Shown: positions 1 to 6,920 of the stretch, one piece after another
Layout of the letters: every line of letters begins with the position of its first letter
Numbering within the stretch: the first letter of the stretch is position 1
From: Candidatus Omnitrophota bacterium
GTDB lineage: Bacteria; Omnitrophota; Koll11; Zapsychrales; Fredricksoniimonadaceae
Length of the DNA stretch: 6,920 nucleotides
Direction of reading: 5' to 3'
Assembly: GCA_015233705.1 (NCBI GenBank)
Contig: JADFXE010000066.1
Span: 1-6,920 of the forward strand
Made by a program: the position numbers and the translations under genes
Notes under the pieces: generated by a model
The model's database searches: none
The model's input: the letters and a program-made list of their open reading frames with translations, nothing else
What the model was told of the DNA's origin: nothing

Positions 1-1
1 C

Positions 2-709
2 CGCGACGGGTTGGACCGCTACATGCACAAGTCCTGCGCCAACTCCCTGGAGGGAGTGGATTGCGTCATTCACCTGGCCGACACCTCGCGTCCTATCGGC
101 GAGGAAGAGTTCCGCGTGGTCGAGCGGCTCAAGCATCTGACCATTCCAGTCATCCTGGGGCTGAACAAGATCGATCTTAAAGGCGAGTTCCTGCATCAGT
201 ACATCTCGCTCTGGGAGGATGCCCGCAAGAAGAAGATCGACGAGATAGAGAATCTTACAATGCTGCCTTTGTCCGGCAAGGAGGGCACGCAGGTCGAGAA
301 GCTGATTGACATCATTTTTTCTGTCCTGCCTGACGCGCCGCTTTTCTACGATCAGGAGATCGTCTGCGACATTCCCAGGAAACTGGTTGTTGCGGACATC
401 ATTCGCGAGAAGTTGTTCTGTTTGACGCGCGAGGAGGTCCCGCATTCGATCGCGGTGACCGTCGAGGAGATGCGTCCGGTCAAGGGCAAGACGGTCCGCA
501 TCACGGCCAATATCCTGGTTGAGCGCGATTCCCAGAAGGAGATCATCATCGGCAAGGGCGGGCAGCTGGTCCAGAAGGTCGGGTTTAGGCCGGGCGCGGA
601 GCTGGAAGCGCGTTTGGAGAGCAAGGTCTTTCGGGAGCTTTATGTGAAAGAGCAGAAGAACTGGCGCGACGATGTCACGATCCTGGCGGATATGGGGTAT
701 CAGTTCTAG
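2..709 (+). CDS. era: GTPase Era, C-terminal part (5' end outside window)
   Basis: Era is an essential GTPase that binds the 3' end of 16S rRNA and helps mature the 30S subunit. The reading frame is open from base 2, so the start and the G1-G3 motifs (P-loop, DTPG) lie upstream. About 235 residues are visible against roughly 300 for the family. Visible are the G4 motif NKID (164-175), a G5-like PLSGKEG, the linker IIREKLFCLTREEVPHS, and a type II KH domain with VERDSQKEIIIGKGG, in which GKGG lies at 551-562. The protein ends with the family-typical NWRDD and a C-terminal aromatic tail. One oddity is FRPG just after the KH GxxG loop, where most Era proteins have an Ala-Arg pair. The TTG at 11 and ATG at 23 are internal codons, not starts. 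The next gene begins 18 bases after the stop, suggesting cotranscription. The family call is secure. Confidence 0.96.
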   Translation, partial: RDGLDRYMHKSCANSLEGVDCVIHLADTSRPIGEEEFRVVERLKHLTIPVILGLNKIDLKGEFLHQYISLWEDARKKKIDEIENLTMLPLSGKEGTQVEKLIDIIFSVLPDAPLFYDQEIVCDIPRKLVVADIIREKLFCLTREEVPHSIAVTVEEMRPVKGKTVRITANILVERDSQKEIIIGKGGQLVQKVGFRPGAELEARLESKVFRELYVKEQKNWRDDVTILADMGYQF

Positions 710-727
710 GCGCAACAGGAAGCCCGA

Positions 728-2140
728 ATGGCAAGATTTCTTTTTGTTAATCCTTCAACCAATGATGTCAAGGGCGCCACGGCAGTAGCCTTGACCATGC
801 CGCCTTTGGGGCTGGCTTATTTGGCCGCGGCCCTGCAGGCCTCCGGTCATGAGGCCAGGATCATTGATGCCCATCTCGAGGGATTTTTACCTCAAGATGT
901 GGTCGCTTCTGTCAGCGAAGCGCCTGATGTTGTCGGAATATCGTCCAATATCCTGACTATCAGGCCGGCACTGCGTTATGCAGCGGCGCTCAAGGGTGCT
1001 TTTCCCGCGGCCCGGGTCATTTTGGGTGGACCGTATGCATCGATCATGGGCCGGAAGTTGCTGGAAGATCGGCCGTTCATTGATGCGGTTATTGTCGGCG
1101 AAGGTGAGCGGACCATTTGCGAGATTGCTCTAGGCCTTTCGCAACCGGATCCTTTTCGCGATGTGAAGGGTGTAATGTTCCGCTGTGCCGGTCAGGTCAT
1201 CGATAACGGTCCGCGGGACTTTGTAAGCGATATTGACGCGCTTCCGTTTCCTGCGTACGGCCTTTTGCCGGATTTGAGGCGGTATCGTTCGCGCAGCCGC
1301 GCTTCTCCGGTCGGGTATATCTTCACCAGTCGTGGATGCCCGGCCGCGTGCACCTTCTGTTACCGAACTTTTGGCGCGCGGTTTCGTGCGCGTTCGCCGG
1401 AGAAAGTACTTGAGGAAATCGCCTATCTGCGGGAGCATTACGGCATTTGCCAGCTGGATATCCTGGATGATAATTTCACTTTTGATGCGGCCCGTGCCAG
1501 GCGTATTCTGGAGATGATCCGCGATCGCCATCCGGGTCTTAAGATCAATCTTCAGATCGGTGTGCGTGTGCACAGTCTCGACGAATCGCTTCTTAAAGTT
1601 ATGAAGGAAGCGGGCGTTTTTAAATTCGGGTTTGGTATCGAGAGCGGCGATCAGGCCATGCTCAAGCGCATCAAGAAGGGGTTGAGCCTGGAGAGAGCTG
1701 TTGAGCTTGTGCGTCTCGCGAGAAGTATGGGGTTCGTGACGCACGGGTATTTTATGATCGGATTTCCTGGTGACACGCCCGAGACCATGCAGCGCACCAT
1801 TGATTTCGCCGTCAAGCTTGATCCGCACTATGCGAGCTTTTCCATTTGCACGCCTCTTCCGGGTACAGAGATGTTTGATGATATTGTCAAAAATGGAACG
1901 ATGTTGGAGGATGTCTCGGAGGGTATTGATGAAGGAATTTTCGCATTGAAGTCACTCTTTCGTTACGGTGACGCTGATCCCGACGATGTTGTGCGCTATT
2001 GCAAGAAGGCCTGGAAAAATTTTTACCTGCGTCCGGGGAAGATTGTGGATGTCCTTTCGACAGTTCGTTCGTGGGGAGAAGCGGGTTGGCTTTGGCGCGT
2101 GGTCAGTGATATACAACGTTCGAGGGGTTCGAATCAGTAA
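728..2140 (+). CDS. B12-binding-domain radical SAM protein, substrate unknown
   Basis: This 470-residue protein has the two-domain layout of cobalamin-dependent (class B/BchE-like) radical SAM enzymes. Residues 1-140 form a Rossmann-like B12-binding-type domain: strand FLFVNP at 4-9, PPLGLAYLA at 25-33, LGGPYAS at 99-105 and IVGEGE at 122-127. The radical SAM core follows at about 195-400. Its cluster motif is C204-P-A-A-C208-T-F-C211 (bases 1337-1360), which should bind 4Fe-4S and SAM. Further core motifs are LDDNFTFD (246-253), GIESGD (303-308) and GFPGDTPE (345-352). A C-terminal helical part of about 60 residues follows, as in hopanoid- and BchE-type relatives. The start is supported by AGGAAG at 717-722, five bases upstream of the ATG. 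Family members do methylations, ring closures and other radical chemistry, so the substrate cannot be named. The neighbours era and nth give no pathway clue. The DAHLEG string at 47-52 fits DxHxxG by letter but sits after the second strand, so it is probably not the cobalt ligand motif. Confidence 0.9.
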   Translation: MARFLFVNPSTNDVKGATAVALTMPPLGLAYLAAALQASGHEARIIDAHLEGFLPQDVVASVSEAPDVVGISSNILTIRPALRYAAALKGAFPAARVILGGPYASIMGRKLLEDRPFIDAVIVGEGERTICEIALGLSQPDPFRDVKGVMFRCAGQVIDNGPRDFVSDIDALPFPAYGLLPDLRRYRSRSRASPVGYIFTSRGCPAACTFCYRTFGARFRARSPEKVLEEIAYLREHYGICQLDILDDNFTFDAARARRILEMIRDRHPGLKINLQIGVRVHSLDESLLKVMKEAGVFKFGFGIESGDQAMLKRIKKGLSLERAVELVRLARSMGFVTHGYFMIGFPGDTPETMQRTIDFAVKLDPHYASFSICTPLPGTEMFDDIVKNGTMLEDVSEGIDEGIFALKSLFRYGDADPDDVVRYCKKAWKNFYLRPGKIVDVLSTVRSWGEAGWLWRVVSDIQRSRGSNQ

Positions 2141-2161
2141 ACTTGAGGAAGCGGGTTCCCA

Positions 2162-2827
2162 ATGAGATTGATGAATAATGTGCAGATGGATGTTGTGGTC
2201 CGCAAGATTAGGGCTGCGGTTCAGCATCTGCCCGACCCCTCTGTCACGCTCGTCGGTAAACGCTGGCAGTCGCCGTATCTGGTCCTGATCTCGTGCCTGC
2301 TCAGCCTGCGCACCAAGGATGAGACGACACTGCCGGCTTCACAGAGGTTATTTGAACTTGCCGACACGCCGGAGCGCATGGTAAAGTTGTCGGCTGCAAA
2401 AATCGAACGGGCCATTTTTCCGGTCGGTTTTTACCGGACCAAGGCCCGACGGATCATTGATATATCGCGTGATATTCTGGGACGCTTCGGCGGAAAAGTG
2501 CCGGACACCATTGAGGACCTTTTGACCTTGAAGGGCGTTGGCCGCAAGACCGCCAATCTGGTCCTGACCGAGGGATTTCACAAGCCCGCGATGTGCGTTG
2601 ACACGCACGTCCACCGGATCTCCAATCGTTTGGGGTATATCAAGACCAGGACTCCGGAAGAGACGGAAACGGCGCTCAGGGAAAAGCTTCCCGGAAAGTT
2701 CTGGGGAGAATATAACGCGCTTTTGGTTTTGTGGGGGCAAAATGTCTGCCGGCCGGTCTCGCCGAAATGTTCAGCGTGTCCGCTTAGCGGCATCTGTCAG
2801 CAGGTAGGCGTCGAACAACATCGTTGA
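2162..2827 (+). CDS. nth: Endonuclease III, DNA glycosylase/AP lyase
   Basis: This base-excision repair enzyme removes oxidised pyrimidines and cuts the abasic strand by beta-elimination. It is 221 residues long, close to the family norm of about 210. The helix-hairpin-helix is LKGVGRKTA at 123-131, with the catalytic lysine at K129. The catalytic aspartate is D147 in CVDTHVHR. The C-terminal 4Fe-4S loop is complete, with C196-x6-C203-x2-C206-x5-C212. Near the N-terminus the segment LLSLRTKDETT (46-56) has Leu-Arg where the E. coli type has Ala-Gln (SAQTTD), a variation seen in other lineages. GAGGA at 2145-2149 lies 12 bases before the ATG; a second in-frame ATG at 2171 is farther away and less likely. 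The gene sits 21 bases after the radical SAM gene and directly before the CBS protein, so it is probably in the same operon. All catalytic and cluster residues are present, so I expect an active enzyme. Confidence 0.96.
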   Translation: MRLMNNVQMDVVVRKIRAAVQHLPDPSVTLVGKRWQSPYLVLISCLLSLRTKDETTLPASQRLFELADTPERMVKLSAAKIERAIFPVGFYRTKARRIIDISRDILGRFGGKVPDTIEDLLTLKGVGRKTANLVLTEGFHKPAMCVDTHVHRISNRLGYIKTRTPEETETALREKLPGKFWGEYNALLVLWGQNVCRPVSPKCSACPLSGICQQVGVEQHR

Positions 2828-2839
2828 TTGCTTTCGAAT

Positions 2840-4132
2840 ATGGCTGATCAATTCTTTATTTATTTTTCCGAGATACTGGGATTTCCCGTTGTGGATTCCG
2901 CCGGATTTCGTGTCGGCCGGGTTTACGACCTTTCCATTGCCCTCAATAATGATATTTATCCCCGCGCCAAGAGCATTATCATTAAAAAAGGGGTTTTGGC
3001 TTCCCGTTATGCCGAGGTTCCGCTCACGGAGCTTCACAAGATCGCGGGCAAGATTTTCCTGAAATGCTCCGCGGCATCGATCCGGTTCCAGAAAGACAAG
3101 GTGGCCTGTGAGTTCGGTCTGCGGCGCGATCTTTTGGACCAGCAGGTCGTTGACGTCGAGAACAAAAAGGTCGTGCGCGTCAATGACGTCCATCTTTTGC
3201 GGGTCGACAATCAGCTGCATATCGCCCACGTTGACGTTGGTCTGCGCGGGATTATCCGTCGTCTTGACTGGGAGCCGTTTGTGGATGCGCTGGTTCGTCT
3301 TTTTAAGAGAGAGGCGGATTATCTGACCGCGGAGGAGCTTGTGTCCTGGAAGAATTCGCAGGTCCTCACGCTGGGGAACCTGAAGAATGTTCTGAAATTG
3401 GATGTTTCGCGCGAGAAGATCGCCAAGATTCCTCCGGTGGCTTTGGCGGATATCATGAAGGATCTGGATATTTTTGAGAAGACCTCTCTTTTTCGGACAC
3501 TGTCTCCGGACGTTCAGCTAAAGGTATTCGCGGATATGATCCCGGACGATAAGGTCAGTCTGGTGGATCAGCTGGAGGATAGGGAGGCGGCTCAACTGGT
3601 GACGAATATCCCCTCCGACGAGGCCGCGGATTTTCTGATGGTCCTTCCCAAGGCGCGCATGCAGCAGCTCTTTCGGCTTATGGAATCGCAGACATCCAAG
3701 CGTCTGCGCGCGCTTCTGGGTTTTCGTAAGGATTCGGCCGGCGGCCTGATGGCGGCGGAGTATTTGTCCCTGAACAGCAGGGCAACGGCCGGGGACGCGA
3801 TGAACAAGATCAAGGCCAGCGTTGATCATCCGGGCAGCCTGACCACGATCTACGTGGTCGACGATAATGGCCGATATTTGGGTACGACTACGATCGGGCG
3901 CTTTATCAATGAAGATGTGAACCGACCCATCCTGGAGACCTGCCATCCGCACAAGTTGTTTGTCAGGACAGACGATGGCATGGAGAAGGTGGCGCTTTTG
4001 ATCGAGCAGTACAAGTATTCTGCGATCCCGGTCTTGGATGAGAATGATATCCTGGTGGGATCCATCACGGTTGACGACGTCATGGAAGAGCTCATCACGA
4101 TCGCCTGGGGCAAATACAAGGACCAGTTATGA
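2840..4132 (+). CDS. Soluble PRC-barrel / MgtE-N / CBS-pair protein, probable Mg2+ sensor
   Basis: This 430-residue protein has no membrane segment. Residues 8-85 and about 96-140 look like two PRC-barrel modules, each opening with a phrase such as SEILGFPVVD or DLLDQQVVDV. Residues 197-300 resemble the superhelical MgtE N domain, with repeated acidic helices such as LEDREAAQLV and IPSDEAADFL and the signature RKDSAGGLMAAEYLSL at 296-311 (compare PEDSAGRLMTPEY of MgtE). Residues 303-425 form a CBS pair, with TTIYVVDDNGRYLG, SAIPVLDENDILVG and ITVDDVMEEL. In MgtE these domains sense cytosolic Mg2+ and close the pore; here the chain stops right after the second CBS domain and no channel follows. 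I chose ATG 2840 because MADQFFIYFSEILG fits the family start; an in-frame TTG at 2828 directly after the nth stop would add four residues. No clear Shine-Dalgarno site is visible, so coupling to nth is possible. The end overlaps the Nramp-like gene by ATGA. Domains are confident; the Mg2+-sensor role is inferred. Confidence 0.88.
   Translation: MADQFFIYFSEILGFPVVDSAGFRVGRVYDLSIALNNDIYPRAKSIIIKKGVLASRYAEVPLTELHKIAGKIFLKCSAASIRFQKDKVACEFGLRRDLLDQQVVDVENKKVVRVNDVHLLRVDNQLHIAHVDVGLRGIIRRLDWEPFVDALVRLFKREADYLTAEELVSWKNSQVLTLGNLKNVLKLDVSREKIAKIPPVALADIMKDLDIFEKTSLFRTLSPDVQLKVFADMIPDDKVSLVDQLEDREAAQLVTNIPSDEAADFLMVLPKARMQQLFRLMESQTSKRLRALLGFRKDSAGGLMAAEYLSLNSRATAGDAMNKIKASVDHPGSLTTIYVVDDNGRYLGTTTIGRFINEDVNRPILETCHPHKLFVRTDDGMEKVALLIEQYKYSAIPVLDENDILVGSITVDDVMEELITIAWGKYKDQL
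4118..4122 (+). promoter_or_regulatory. Ribosome binding site for the Nramp-related gene
   Basis: AAGGA lies six bases before ATG 4129 and inside the last codons of the upstream sensor gene. With the ATGA stop/start overlap at 4129-4132 it fixes the start and points to coupled translation of the two proteins. Confidence 0.75.
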
Positions 4133-5463
4133 AGATCATTGAAAAGATCAAGTCCAGCCCGGTTGTCAGGAATTTCTTTCTTTTTTTGGCCATTCTGGGG
4201 CCCGGGATCGTTACCGGCAGCGTGGACAATGACGCCGGCGGCATCACGACCTATTCGGTCGCTGGTGCCATTTACGGATATGGCCTTTTGTGGACGCTGA
4301 TCCCGTCGTTCATTGCGCTTTTTGTGGTCCAGGAGATGAACCTAAGGATGGGCGTCATCACCGGCAAGGGATTGGCGGATCTGATCCGTGAGAACTTTGG
4401 CGTCAAGATCACGGCGTTCATCTTTCTGGGGCTGATCATTGCGGACATCGGCAACACGGCCACCGAGTTCGCCGGTGTTGCCGGTAGTATGTCGATCTTC
4501 GGGGTCAGTAAGTATCTTTCTGTACCGATCACGGCGGTCGCGGTTTGGATCCTGGCAACCAAAGGCAATTACAAGATCGCCGAGCGGATCTTTCTGTTTT
4601 TCAGTTTCTGCCTGCTGTTTTATATCGTCTCCGCCATCATGGCGAAACCGGACTGGTCCGCGATCGGCACGGCGTTTGTCAAGCCGGAGGTGCGGTTTAA
4701 CAATGAATATCTCAGCATGGTCCTGGGCCTCATCGGGACCACGATCGCGCCGTGGATGCAGTTTTACATGCAGTCGGCGGTTATTGAGAAGGGGATCACG
4801 GTTAAGGAATACAAGTTCGCGCTGGCGGACGTGGTGGTGGGCTGCACTGCGACGGTGGTTGTCGCGTTTTTCATCATCATTTCCTGCGCGGCCACGCTTC
4901 ACAAGAACGGCGTGGTCATCAAGGAAGCGGCTGACGCGGCTATGGCCCTCAAACCATTTGCCGGTGTCCTCGCGTCCCAGGTTTTTGCCTTCGGTCTTTT
5001 TATTGCCTCAGCTTTCTCCGCAACGATTCTGCCGCTGGCGACCGCGTTCTATGTCTGCGAAGCCTTTGGGTTTGAGGCCGGCATCGATAAGCGCATGGAC
5101 GAGGCGCCGCAATTTTACTGGCTTTTCGGCAGCATCATCGCCATCGCGGTCGGGATCATCCTCATGCCCAACGCGCCCCTGATCGCGATCACCATCTGGA
5201 CGCAGGTCATCAATGCCATGCTCCTGCCGGTGGTCCTTATTTCCATGATCTACATGGTTAACAGCCGCTACATCATGGGTGACTACGTCAATAACCGGAT
5301 TCAGAACCTGATTGGCTGGACCACGACCGTGGTGTTGATCATCCTGACGGTCCTGCTGATCGTTTCTCCTCTGGAGCCTGTTTTCCAGAAGATCTTTCAC
5401 AGGACGCCGGCAACGGCTCAGGTTTCAGGGGGAAGCGCTCAGGTCCAGGGAACCAAGACTTGA
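4129..5463 (+). CDS. Nramp-superfamily permease, probable Mg2+ type (NRMT-like)
   Basis: This 444-residue inner-membrane protein has about 11 predicted membrane segments, at roughly 17-45, 47-70, 92-118, 131-145, 153-172, 194-218, 233-258, 277-311, 328-346, 349-376 and 393-413. A polar tail follows from 415. The first helix has GPGIVTGSVDNDAGG: the DPGN metal-binding motif of Mn/Fe Nramps is replaced by D35-A36-G37-G38. In helix 6, GLIGTTIAPWMQ replaces the canonical MPH, so the metal-coordinating methionine is A207 and the histidine is W209. As I recall the SLC11 literature, loss of the Asn and the Met (to Gly and Ala) marks Nramp-related magnesium transporters, which take a hydrated Mg2+ and are not proton-coupled; I could not align it here. 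The preceding gene, overlapping by four bases, encodes MgtE-type Mg2+ sensor domains, which supports Mg2+ as the substrate. Superfamily membership is secure and the substrate is inferred. Mn2+ or another divalent ion remains possible. Confidence 0.9.
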   Translation: MKIIEKIKSSPVVRNFFLFLAILGPGIVTGSVDNDAGGITTYSVAGAIYGYGLLWTLIPSFIALFVVQEMNLRMGVITGKGLADLIRENFGVKITAFIFLGLIIADIGNTATEFAGVAGSMSIFGVSKYLSVPITAVAVWILATKGNYKIAERIFLFFSFCLLFYIVSAIMAKPDWSAIGTAFVKPEVRFNNEYLSMVLGLIGTTIAPWMQFYMQSAVIEKGITVKEYKFALADVVVGCTATVVVAFFIIISCAATLHKNGVVIKEAADAAMALKPFAGVLASQVFAFGLFIASAFSATILPLATAFYVCEAFGFEAGIDKRMDEAPQFYWLFGSIIAIAVGIILMPNAPLIAITIWTQVINAMLLPVVLISMIYMVNSRYIMGDYVNNRIQNLIGWTTTVVLIILTVLLIVSPLEPVFQKIFHRTPATAQVSGGSAQVQGTKT

Positions 5464-5487
5464 TGCGCTTTATGCGTTTCTTTGCGG

Positions 5488-5515
5488 TTGACAGAGTCAC
5501 ATAAAAGAATATAAT
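5488..5515 (+). promoter_or_regulatory. Consensus sigma-70-type promoter of rpsU
   Basis: TTGACA at 5488-5493 and TATAAT at 5510-5515 both match the housekeeping consensus exactly, with a 16-base spacer. Transcription should start near 5521-5523, giving a leader of about 57 bases before the S21 start. The leader has a weak inverted repeat (CTTTTA at 5523-5528 against TAAAAAG at 5535-5541) and is otherwise A-rich. The promoter lies just after the Nramp-like gene, where I see no good terminator, so some readthrough into rpsU is also possible. Confidence 0.88.
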
Positions 5516-5578
5516 TAATCCACTTTTAGTCTGATAAAAAGAATAGAAATCCACAATACCTGAAGGTTGGTGAAAAAC

Positions 5579-5749
5579 ATGGTGGAAGTCAGGATCACGG
5601 ACAGGAACGGTTTTGAGAAGGCCCTGCGCACGTTCAAGAAATTGTGCCAGCGCGAAGGTTTTCTCGTCGAGCTTAAAGAGCGCCGGTTCTATACCAAGCC
5701 CTCTGAGCGCAAGCGCAAGAAGGGCAAAATGGGCGGCAGCATGCGCTGA
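5579..5749 (+). CDS. rpsU: 30S ribosomal protein S21
   Basis: S21 is a small basic protein of the 30S platform that helps initiation on mRNA. The 56-residue product opens with VEVRITDRNGFEKALRTFKK, carries LCQREGFLVELKERRFYTKP at 22-41, and ends in a Lys/Arg-rich tail (SERKRKKGK). All are hallmarks of the family, whose usual length is 55-70. I chose ATG 5579; in-frame TTG 5567 and GTG 5570 would add residues not typical of S21. The likely ribosome site is GAAGG at 5562-5566, 12 bases upstream. The gene is monocistronic, with its own consensus promoter and a strong terminator 20 bases after the stop, fitting a highly expressed ribosomal gene. Confidence 0.95.
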   Translation: MVEVRITDRNGFEKALRTFKKLCQREGFLVELKERRFYTKPSERKRKKGKMGGSMR

Positions 5750-5769
5750 TAGCCCGTAAAGGCTCTGTG

Positions 5770-5808
5770 ACAACGCCGTCCCCTTAAAAGGACGGCGTTG
5801 TATTTTTT
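5770..5808 (+). terminator. Intrinsic terminator after rpsU
   Basis: A perfect 12-bp stem pairs 5770-5781 (ACAACGCCGTCC) with 5790-5801, with an eight-base loop CCTTAAAA, followed by a six-T run at 5803-5808. The reverse strand lacks a T run after the stem, so it should work only for + strand transcripts. Confidence 0.93.
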
Positions 5809-5869
5809 AATGAGGACAAAACTTACGGAGCGAGCAAGGCGAGCGAACATAAGTTGTTGTCCGAATTAA
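5807..5869. repeat. 63-nt imperfect palindrome with mirror-symmetric loop
   Basis: TTAAT at 5807-5811 pairs with ATTAA at 5865-5869. Two opposed G/A mismatches follow (G5812-A5864, A5813-G5863). A 12-bp stem then pairs 5814-5825 (GGACAAAACTTA) with 5850-5862, with a single bulged G at 5856. The 24-base loop contains no T and holds a mirror repeat, AGCGAGC at 5829-5835 and CGAGCGA at 5840-5846 around AAGG. It starts within the T run of the rpsU terminator and has no terminator T run of its own. It resembles REP-type dispersed elements in architecture. Whether it is repeated elsewhere cannot be seen from this window. Confidence 0.7.
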
Positions 5870-5895
5870 CCCCGTCCCCTTCAGCGGCGGTGGGG
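5870..5895 (+). other. GC-rich leader hairpin before the DJ-1/PfpI gene
   Basis: CCCC at 5870-5873 pairs with GGGG at 5892-5895. The stem continues through two G-T pairs, a C-G, a C-C mismatch and two more C-G pairs, with a loop of six bases (TTCAGC). It ends five bases before the AGG used as ribosome site at 5901-5903, so it could affect translation. No T run follows, so it is not a terminator. I see no convincing promoter between 5809 and 5908. Confidence 0.4.
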
Positions 5896-5908
5896 CCGGC
5901 AGGTGCAC

Positions 5909-6418
5909 ATGACCAAGAAGATCGCTATTCTCGTTGATGAGTCATATCAGGTCCTGGAGGTCTGGTATCCGCTGTACCGTCTGCGTGAGGCTGGCTTTGA
6001 GGTCGTGCTGATCGGCAACGGCACCCGGGATACCTTTCCCTCCAAGGAGGGCTATCCCTGCAAGGTCGACCGTTCGATCGAACAGGTCGCGGCCAAAGAT
6101 TTTGATGCCGTCATCATTCCCGGCGGCTGGGCCCCGGATTTTCTCCGGCGTTACCCCAAGATCGTCCAGTTCGTCAAGGACCTGAATGCGGCCGGCAAGC
6201 TGATCGCCTCGATCTGTCACGGCGGATGGATGCTGGTGTCGGCCGATTGCTGCCGCGGGAAGAAGGCGACCTGTTTTTTCGCCATCAAGGATGACATCAT
6301 CGCGGCCGGTGCCAGATATGTGGATGAGGAGACGGTCGTTGACGGGAACCTCATCACGGCCCGCAAGCCCGATGATCTGCCAAGATTTGTTAAGGAAATT
6401 ATAAACAAGTTACAGTGA
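5909..6418 (+). CDS. DJ-1/PfpI family protein with altered active site
   Basis: This 169-residue cytosolic protein has the single-domain DJ-1/PfpI fold, closest in pattern to YhbO/PfpI-type proteins, which are variously described as proteases, deglycases or glyoxalase-like stress proteins. Visible motifs are KKIAILVDESYQVLEVWYP at the N-terminus, FDAVIIPGGWAPD at 65-77, the nucleophile elbow ASICHGG with Cys103 and His104 (C103 at 6215-6217), LVSADCCRGKK at 109-119 and TARKPDDLPRF at 150-160. The glutamate that normally supports the cysteine (the Glu of FED/FEE in relatives) appears to be Gln14, and the usual HGP is HGG. Cys114, Cys115 and Cys122 are extra cysteines near the active site. I chose ATG 5909, with AGG at 5901-5903 five bases upstream; GTG 5903 would add two residues. 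No operon partner is obvious. Family is secure, and enzymatic activity is uncertain. Confidence 0.9.
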   Translation: MTKKIAILVDESYQVLEVWYPLYRLREAGFEVVLIGNGTRDTFPSKEGYPCKVDRSIEQVAAKDFDAVIIPGGWAPDFLRRYPKIVQFVKDLNAAGKLIASICHGGWMLVSADCCRGKKATCFFAIKDDIIAAGARYVDEETVVDGNLITARKPDDLPRFVKEIINKLQ

Positions 6419-6423
6419 AAGAA

Positions 6424-6439
6424 TCAGGCGTCAGGCGTC
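6424..6439 (+). repeat. Short tandem repeat upstream of purH
   Basis: TCAGGCG occurs twice in direct tandem (6424-6430, 6431-6437), followed by TC and by a further TCAGG at 6445-6449. It fills the 33-base gap between the DJ-1/PfpI stop and the purH start. No standard Shine-Dalgarno site at normal spacing is seen there. Confidence 0.6.
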
Positions 6440-6451
6440 TGGTTTCAGGGT

Positions 6452-6920
6452 ATGATTAAAGTCAAGCGCGCGCTCATTTCTGTTTCTGACAAGACCGGCC
6501 TTTTGGAGTTTGCCAAGGGTCTTAGTCGCTACGGTGTTGAGATGATCTCGACAGGCGGGACAGCCAAAATGATTCGTGAGGCCGGGCTTCTGGTCAAGGA
6601 GGTCTCGGATTACACCGGATTTCCCGAGATGATGGACGGGCGTGTCAAGACGCTGCATCCCAAGATCCACGGCGGGCTTTTGGCGGTCAGGGACAACCCC
6701 GAGCACATGAAGGCGGCCGAGGCGCACGGCATTGGCATGATCGACATGGTGGTCGTCAACCTCTATCCCTTCGAGAAGGTGATTCAGAAAAAGAACGTGT
6801 CGCTCGAGGAGGCCATCGAGAATATTGACATCGGCGGTCCTTCGCTGCGCCGCTCGGCGGCGAAGACCTACCAGAGTGTGGCGGCCATCTGCAATCCCGA
6901 GCGCTCCAGCGACATCCTGG
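6452..6920 (+). CDS. purH: Bifunctional AICAR transformylase/IMP cyclohydrolase, N-terminal part
   Basis: PurH catalyses the last two steps of de novo IMP synthesis: formylation of AICAR, then ring closure to IMP. The 156 visible residues cover most of the N-terminal MGS-like IMP cyclohydrolase domain; the transformylase domain lies beyond the window edge. Motifs are [12 protein letters not shown] at 5-16, STGGTA at 33-38, [16 protein letters not shown] at 63-78, MVVVNLYPF at 99-107 and [16 protein letters not shown] at 123-138, all typical of PurH. ATG 6452 is the start because the DJ-1/PfpI stop (6416-6418) is in the same frame and no start codon lies between. AGGG at 6447-6450 is too close to the ATG to be a normal ribosome site. 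The frame remains open at base 6920, so the gene is cut by the window, not broken. Confidence 0.96.

Follow-up and report, generated by a model that had tools for sequence, protein, structure and literature searches.

The NrmT proteins were named by Shin et al. 2014 (PMC4072509), in whose account most members have an MgtE-N-like protein encoded next to them and some stand behind M-boxes. For the MgtE-like neighbour, that account speculates about cytoplasmic feedback or a chaperone role and leaves the role open. One member, EleNRMT, has been solved alone, in a study that describes the metal-site signature of the group as DxxG in transmembrane helix 1 (TM1) and TxxA/T in TM6 (Ramanadane et al. 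2022, PMC8806188); the main text of that paper does not contain the terms CBS, operon or genomic. In the parts available, a 2026 preprint (PMC12873925) uses a group called 'NRMT-like' and a 2026 review (PMC13209247) does not use the term NrmT. Within the PMC literature searched, no paper followed up the MgtE-like gene after Shin et al. 2014 and none combined PRC-barrel and MgtE. Here we analyse such a gene pair in a stretch of 6,920 nucleotides from a Candidatus Omnitrophota bacterium (assembly GCA_015233705.1, contig JADFXE010000066.1, positions 1 to 6,920, forward strand), referred to as the window. It consists of a gene for a soluble protein with MgtE-type domains, referred to as the sensor, and a gene for an NRMT-type permease, and the two are nearly always found together in the bacteria sampled.

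The pair is the same as the NrmT/MgtE-like pair described by Shin et al. 2014, for example at Ca_c0685 of C. acetobutylicum and in A. capsulatum; the window differs from those systems in being an Omnitrophota member and in having no M-box. An earlier note on this DNA had proposed that an MgtE-type sensor acts in trans on an unrelated transporter fold. That idea is sound, but it is not new, having been published by Shin et al. 2014 (PMC4072509). New here are the adjacency counts, the reversed gene order, a candidate docking module and the named ligands; the main text of the 2014 paper contains neither the term PRC nor the term CBS.

The sensor gene occupies positions 2840..4132 on the forward strand and encodes 430 amino acids from an ATG start, with an alternative in-frame TTG at 2828. 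Its product is composed of tandem PRC-type barrels (about residues 1-180, positions 2840..3379, the second barrel being about residues 93-141), an MgtE_N-like helical domain (about residues 188-293, 3401..3718, containing D260 and D264) and a CBS pair (about residues 305-426, 3752..4117, containing K392, D413 and E416). Pfam matches are to PRC at residues 7-73 (E = 1.3e-7, 32 bits), MgtE_N at residues 198-298 (E = 1.4e-18) and CBS (E = 2.7e-13). No MgtE transmembrane domain was detected in the Pfam search, and the protein stops at residue 430, just past the second CBS domain. The TIGR00400 (mgtE) profile is matched at positions 19-253 of 450 only, with 131.7 bits against a cut-off of 232.75. 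These matches bear out the earlier description of a sensor that has MgtE_N and CBS domains and lacks the channel; the PRC-barrel N-terminus is an addition to that domain picture.

In structure comparisons of the predicted model, the MgtE_N and CBS part resembles 2yvy, 8gpv and others. Matches to the full sensor model lie mostly on the CBS part, and those to the N-terminal model mostly on the first barrel, so that the absence of other folds is uninformative. The first barrel is a PRC domain according to the 32-bit Pfam match, and PRC was found in 22 of 22 sensor N-termini. The second barrel is tentatively assigned from a match to CdpB together with a Pfam PRC score of 14.1 bits, which is below the cut-off. 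CdpB has a role in cell division. The identity to its tandem PRC-barrel (8qzo; archaeal, A. fulgidus) is 15%, and no shared function is implied. Compared with the MgtE cytosolic domain (TtMgtE 2yvy, CbMgtE 8gpv), the window sensor is not attached to a channel and carries the tandem PRC-type barrels in addition. Candidatus Omnitrophica/Omnitrophota bacteria hold the nearest named relatives of sensor and permease alike.

The permease gene (4129..5463, forward strand, 444 amino acids) matches Pfam Nramp with E = 3.7e-93. Its best PDB match is EleNRMT (7qia), with 369 bits over residues 13-413, followed at 100 bits by the MntH chain 8e6i, and both the Pfam and the PDB match uphold the assignment to the Nramp fold made in the earlier note. 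The metal site has the NRMT signature, D35..G38 and T204..A207, with W209, E113 and Q359. The DxxG-TxxA site, the tryptophan at the first former histidine position and the equivalent glutamate and glutamine are shared with EleNRMT, the closest solved relative; unlike EleNRMT, which has N at the second former histidine position, the window permease has M214. Both proton-pathway histidines of helix 6b are therefore replaced, by W209 and M214. The motifs read NDAGG and TIAPWM rather than the canonical ones of Nramp and MntH, which are DPGN in TM1 and MPH in TM6. In an alignment of 122 Nramp homologues, made up of the window permease and those from loci L001-L122 (with some places fetched twice), 121 share the seven residues D, G, T, A, W, E and Q, the exception being a canonical-type Nramp in L061. 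We propose that the window permease transports Mg2+, possibly also Mn2+. The open reading frame coordinates, the ATGA in which the sensor stop and the permease start overlap (4129..4132) and the AAGGA ribosome-binding-like site of the permease (4118..4122, 6 nt before the ATG) are all present as first noted.

Contigs were scanned with the permease alignment. Of the 587 stretches confirmed, the best 80 were examined for the neighbouring gene; they come from Omnitrophota, Bacteroidota/Ignavibacteria, Spirochaetes, Firmicutes and other groups. A same-strand sensor match lies at most 400 bases upstream in 74 of these 80 permease loci, and in 70 of the 74 a start codon is -10 to +32 bases from the sensor end. 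Three of the six misses are near contig ends (L010, L065 and L049, with 391, 0 and 758 bases of contig upstream of the permease frame). In the other three (L005, L006, L067) the sensor is elsewhere in the genome, and in that of L005 it is split into two reading frames. An ATGA overlap was seen in 7 of the 74 sensor-bearing loci. It is thus not a conserved trait, and we rejected it as a mark of coupling.

Three draws of genomes gave similarly high counts. Among 193 Omnitrophota genomes, the sensor adjoins 45 of 45 permeases (40 sensor first, 5 permease first). The figure for 198 Bacteroidota genomes is 24 of 25, with the sensor gene leading in 6 and the permease gene in 18, and that for 199 genomes from the phylum of C. 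ljungdahlii is 20 of 21, with the sensor gene leading in every case. In the Bacteroidota miss (G377) the permease is 368 bases from the contig end on the expected sensor side and sensor fragments are on other contigs; in the remaining miss (G006, contig C63) a split sensor is on contig C12 of the same genome. Pooled, 89 of 91 NRMT-like permeases have an adjacent sensor, 66 in the order sensor-permease and 23 in the order permease-sensor, and adjacency therefore survives rearrangement. Leaving out the genomes already known from the permease contig scan (G001, G009, G005, G006), the count is 84 of 85. Permeases were counted as NRMT-like in Omnitrophota for all matches at E 1e-20 (at least 185 bits, the lowest being cut by a contig end), in Bacteroidota at a minimum of 268 bits and in the phylum of C. 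ljungdahlii at a minimum of 358 bits, the latter two breaks having been set after the scores were seen. Some adjacent sensors included in the counts are cut by the contig start (for example L013, L030, L036, L071 and G224), and the counts are not independent events, as the drawn genomes are related and many are incomplete. The earlier note had counted the lack of a conserved neighbourhood among the observations that would speak against its proposal, and across three phyla the neighbourhood proves strongly conserved.

In two of these draws, the association did not extend to lower-scoring Nramp proteins. At E 1e-50 the sensor adjoins 0 of 21 lower-scoring Nramp homologues from the Bacteroidota and C. 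ljungdahlii phylum draws, and at a looser cut-off of E 1e-3 it was found in 0 of 20 of their flanks, mostly 0.5-1.3 kb a side (G377, contig C67, left out). The NRMT signature is missing in 18 of the 19 low-scoring proteins with a readable site, which are of the types DxxS/AxxM, DxxG/TxxS and GPGT/VVPY; the metal site of homologues was read in fetched loci only. For the 148 permease-less genomes of the Omnitrophota draw, none among the matches listed covers the PRC part. Chance neighbours are rejected on the basis of the adjacency counts, and there is a strong case that sensor and permease are functionally linked.

The two genes might still be merely co-transcribed, with the sensor acting elsewhere, for example on ribosomes or in cell division, as other PRC-barrel proteins do. 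The tandem PRC part does resemble the PRC folds of CdpB and RimM, and in a few genomes the sensor is beside other genes (a KimA-like gene in L139, a phosphofructokinase-like gene in L167-L170). We consider this very unlikely given that the adjacency holds in 89 of 91 cases, in two gene orders, with NRMT-like permeases and not with 21 other Nramps, and that several genomes in which the genes are separated still hold both.

Two further groups of permeases were encountered. In the reversed-order class comprising L123-L125, L128, L129 and L147, the NRMT permease is more divergent, scoring 266-291 bits where whole. The Nramp-like proteins encoded at loci L149-L153 and L158-L162 have unusual metal sites (TDAGS/IMPW, DDDPSG/TISPY), and the flanks examined contain no sensor; these proteins are candidate uncharacterised groups.

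A separate tally covered the 73 genomes of the order to which G400 belongs, a set that overlaps the C. ljungdahlii phylum draw. Here, 33 of 39 permease matches adjoin a sensor, with two fragments of a single G619 permease counted as one and a G521 sensor fragment included; three of the six misses are at contig starts and three are true separations (G596, G597, G631). Nine sensors have no adjacent permease at the cut-off, two of them at contig ends (G636, G638); this is also seen in G552 and G633. In L167-L170 (G596, G597, G631, G632) such a sensor is followed by a gene identified by eye as phosphofructokinase-like. Another of the nine, a second sensor copy of G400 (contig C4; L139, 5983-9405), is 150 bp upstream of a gene for a KimA-like K+ transporter and not of an NRMT gene. 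The KimA-like protein matches 6s3k with 372 bits and the AA_permease_2 family. KimA as a regular second partner was rejected: by a comparison of coordinates it is adjacent in G400 alone of the 73 genomes, although KimA-like genes occur in 42 (E 1e-60).

The sensor family is conserved across phyla; column identity averages 66% over 26 aligned members. Conservation in the 74 loci is highest in the second PRC-type barrel (residues 93-141), where D100, D116, D132, R140 and R141 hardly vary, at 2.79 bits per column, compared with 2.54 for MgtE_N, 2.18 for the linker, 2.13 and 2.16 for the CBS halves and 1.82 for the first barrel. Columns at least 90% identical make up 18 of 49 in the second barrel and 18 of 106 in MgtE_N. 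This pattern bears on whether the sensor is the decayed remnant of an MgtE channel that happens to lie beside an unrelated permease. The missing pore is what such decay would leave behind. Yet the frame is open, the conservation spans phyla (including the positions equivalent to D95 and D247 of TtMgtE, each kept in 73 of 74 sensors), and a PRC module has been added; because of this conservation and the added PRC part, an MgtE pseudogene is rejected, and we assign the remnant explanation practically no probability. Sensor genes split into two open frames were observed with the break in the linker (G002; L085), near the MgtE_N start (G521; L143) and near the MgtE_N end (G006; L142), and these frame breaks may be sequencing errors.

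We then compared the Mg2+ sites of MgtE, assigned following the published description (PMC5882242), with the sensors. The window keeps the ligands of Mg4 and Mg6: D260 corresponds to D91 of TtMgtE (Mg4), D264 to D95 (Mg6) and D413 to D247 (Mg4). Across the 74 sensors, D91 is D in 65 and N in 9, and D95 and D247 are D in 73 each. At the Mg5 and Mg7 positions, D250 is E in 44 and D in 16, E59 is D in 62, and D226 is N in 54, K in 12, D in 5 and S in 3. Among further acidic TtMgtE positions, D224 is K in 69 and D is present in 8 at D214, in 30 at D212 and in 45 at D246, but D92 is E in 74. As a control we used 20 full-length MgtEs from the same three draws, in which D91, D95 and D247 are kept in 20, 19 and 20; D250 is D in 18 and E in 2, E59 is E in 8, and D226 is D in 13 and N in 6. 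Mg4 and Mg6 are thus about equally well kept in detached sensors and in MgtE. The detached sensors depart from MgtE at D226 (Mg5) and, within the clade of the window, at Mg7 as well, E59 being variable among MgtEs too.

Riboswitches provide a further link to Mg2+. Of 14 loci picked from 175, 8 have an M-box Mg2+ aptamer ahead of the sensor gene, namely 6 in named Firmicutes and 2 from the C. ljungdahlii phylum draw. No M-box was found in the other six loci scanned (L001, L008, L034, L045, L053, L139), nor in the window (RF00380, E up to 1).

A feedback mechanism appears likely from these sequence patterns. On balance we favour a detached cytosolic subunit that gives Mg2+-dependent feedback on NRMT and docks via the second PRC-type barrel, an account in which we infer binding, docking, the sign of the effect and the ligand. 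The two genes would form one transport system, in which NRMT would carry Mg2+ (possibly also Mn2+) across the membrane and the PRC-PRC-MgtE_N-CBS protein would be its regulatory subunit. Docking on the permease would probably be through the second barrel, which is a candidate docking unit because it is the most conserved module and the MgtE part is already explained by sensing. In the reaction centre, PRC domains of the H subunit are seated on membrane proteins. At high cytosolic Mg2+, the ion would be bound where MgtE_N meets the CBS part, by acidic pairs that correspond to the MgtE sites Mg4 and Mg6; the sensor would then compact and uptake would be damped, a negative feedback as in MgtE that would operate in trans.

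Several observations weigh against this account. The permease of L146, one of the low-scoring homologues, has the NRMT signature but lacks a sensor over 4.3 kb on one side and 3.0 kb on the other, and the two genes are apart in some genomes (G002-G004, G006, G596, G597, G631). A true sensor-permease fusion was present in none of 7994 scored candidates. The joined-protein search gave 17 matches, none of them a clean fusion, and fusion was rejected as a proof of partnership; in P0243 the first part of a sensor is followed by an unlike stretch and then by a permease, which looks, as deposited, like a lost reading frame. In the experiments reported by Shin et al. 2014 (PMC4072509), co-expression of the partial MgtE of A. 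capsulatum gave no better rescue of a Mg2+-transport mutant, and rescue by the C. acetobutylicum NrmTs did not require the sensor gene. Better rescue would not, however, be expected from a negative regulator.

The sites themselves also depart from MgtE, with Mg5, Mg7 and ATP-contact positions altered and the plug helix truncated. In the window, K228 is at the position of E59 (Mg7) and K392 at that of D226 (Mg5), with E416 at that of D250 (Mg5), and according to the description of the MgtE sites, mutating any of Mg2-Mg7 blocks the closed state (PMC5882242). In reversed-order sensors D91 is lost (G or P in 6 of 6), with D95 kept in 5 of 6 and D247 in 6 of 6. At the ATP contacts R187 and D188 of MgtE (PMC5529423) the window has G353 and R354, and Y393 is also at an ATP-contact position. 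The plug helix, which blocks the MgtE pore, is cut short: the sensor ends at the equivalent of TtMgtE residue 264, and by that offset E258 and D259 (Mg2, Mg3) correspond to G424 and K425. The two lysines and the short plug helix make a literal copy of MgtE gating by the window sensor unlikely. What stands of the earlier proposal of a trans-acting MgtE-type sensor is a regulatory partnership, which is likely given the conserved neighbourhood, the Mg4/Mg6 ligands and the M-boxes before Firmicute sensor genes.

The altered sites raise the alternative that the sensor regulates NRMT while mainly sensing another cue, such as Mn2+, an adenine nucleotide or c-di-AMP via the CBS pair, and that its Mg2+ ligands are in part relics. 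Consistent with this, the A. capsulatum NrmT, which is adjoined by an MgtE-like gene, looked like a Mn2+ transporter in the reported data (PMC4072509); the Mg5 and Mg7 ligands are changed in the window, D226 being N or K in most of the 74 sensors; and 66 of 74 sensors keep R187, which in MgtE contacts the phosphate of ATP. However, D95 and D247 are retained almost throughout, in reversed-order sensors as well, M-boxes respond to Mg2+ and precede the sensor gene in more than half of the loci scanned, and the window itself has lost the R187/D188 pair. We regard another main cue as unlikely. A metal chaperone or buffer that passes Mg2+ to or from NRMT without gating is an alternative named in the 2014 account (PMC4072509). 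It, too, fits the adjacency evidence, and we judge it quite unlikely.

More broadly, and with less confidence than in Mg2+-dependent feedback by a detached subunit, we tentatively suggest a near-obligate two-part Mg2+ transporter, in which an MgtE-descended sensor module would act in trans on a LeuT-fold permease via tandem PRC-barrel docking and was perhaps swapped to other LeuT-fold carriers, as in the KimA-like case. Gating of NRMT in trans by the sensor would mean that two unrelated transporter folds are controlled by a single Mg2+-sensing module and that the structure solved for NRMT shows the transporter without its regulatory subunit. With the adjacency counted, a candidate docking module proposed and individual ligands named, the role of the sensor can be tested directly.

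The other genes of the window are all on the forward strand. Upstream of the sensor are the end of an Era-like GTPase gene (2-709, named by eye), a B12/radical-SAM gene (728-2140) and an endonuclease III-like gene (2162-2827). The latter is also directly 5' of the sensor elsewhere in Omnitrophota, with 8 near-full-length matches in tblastn from 6 distinct places, and it precedes the sensor even where the permease is absent (L126). The genes 3' of the permease are those for ribosomal protein S21 and a DJ-1/PfpI protein and the start of a purH-like gene (by eye). A sigma-70-like promoter (12/12) at 5488-5515 precedes the S21 gene, which is followed at 5770-5801 by a terminator-like hairpin with a T run; these elements suggest that the S21 gene is a transcription unit separate from the sensor-permease pair.

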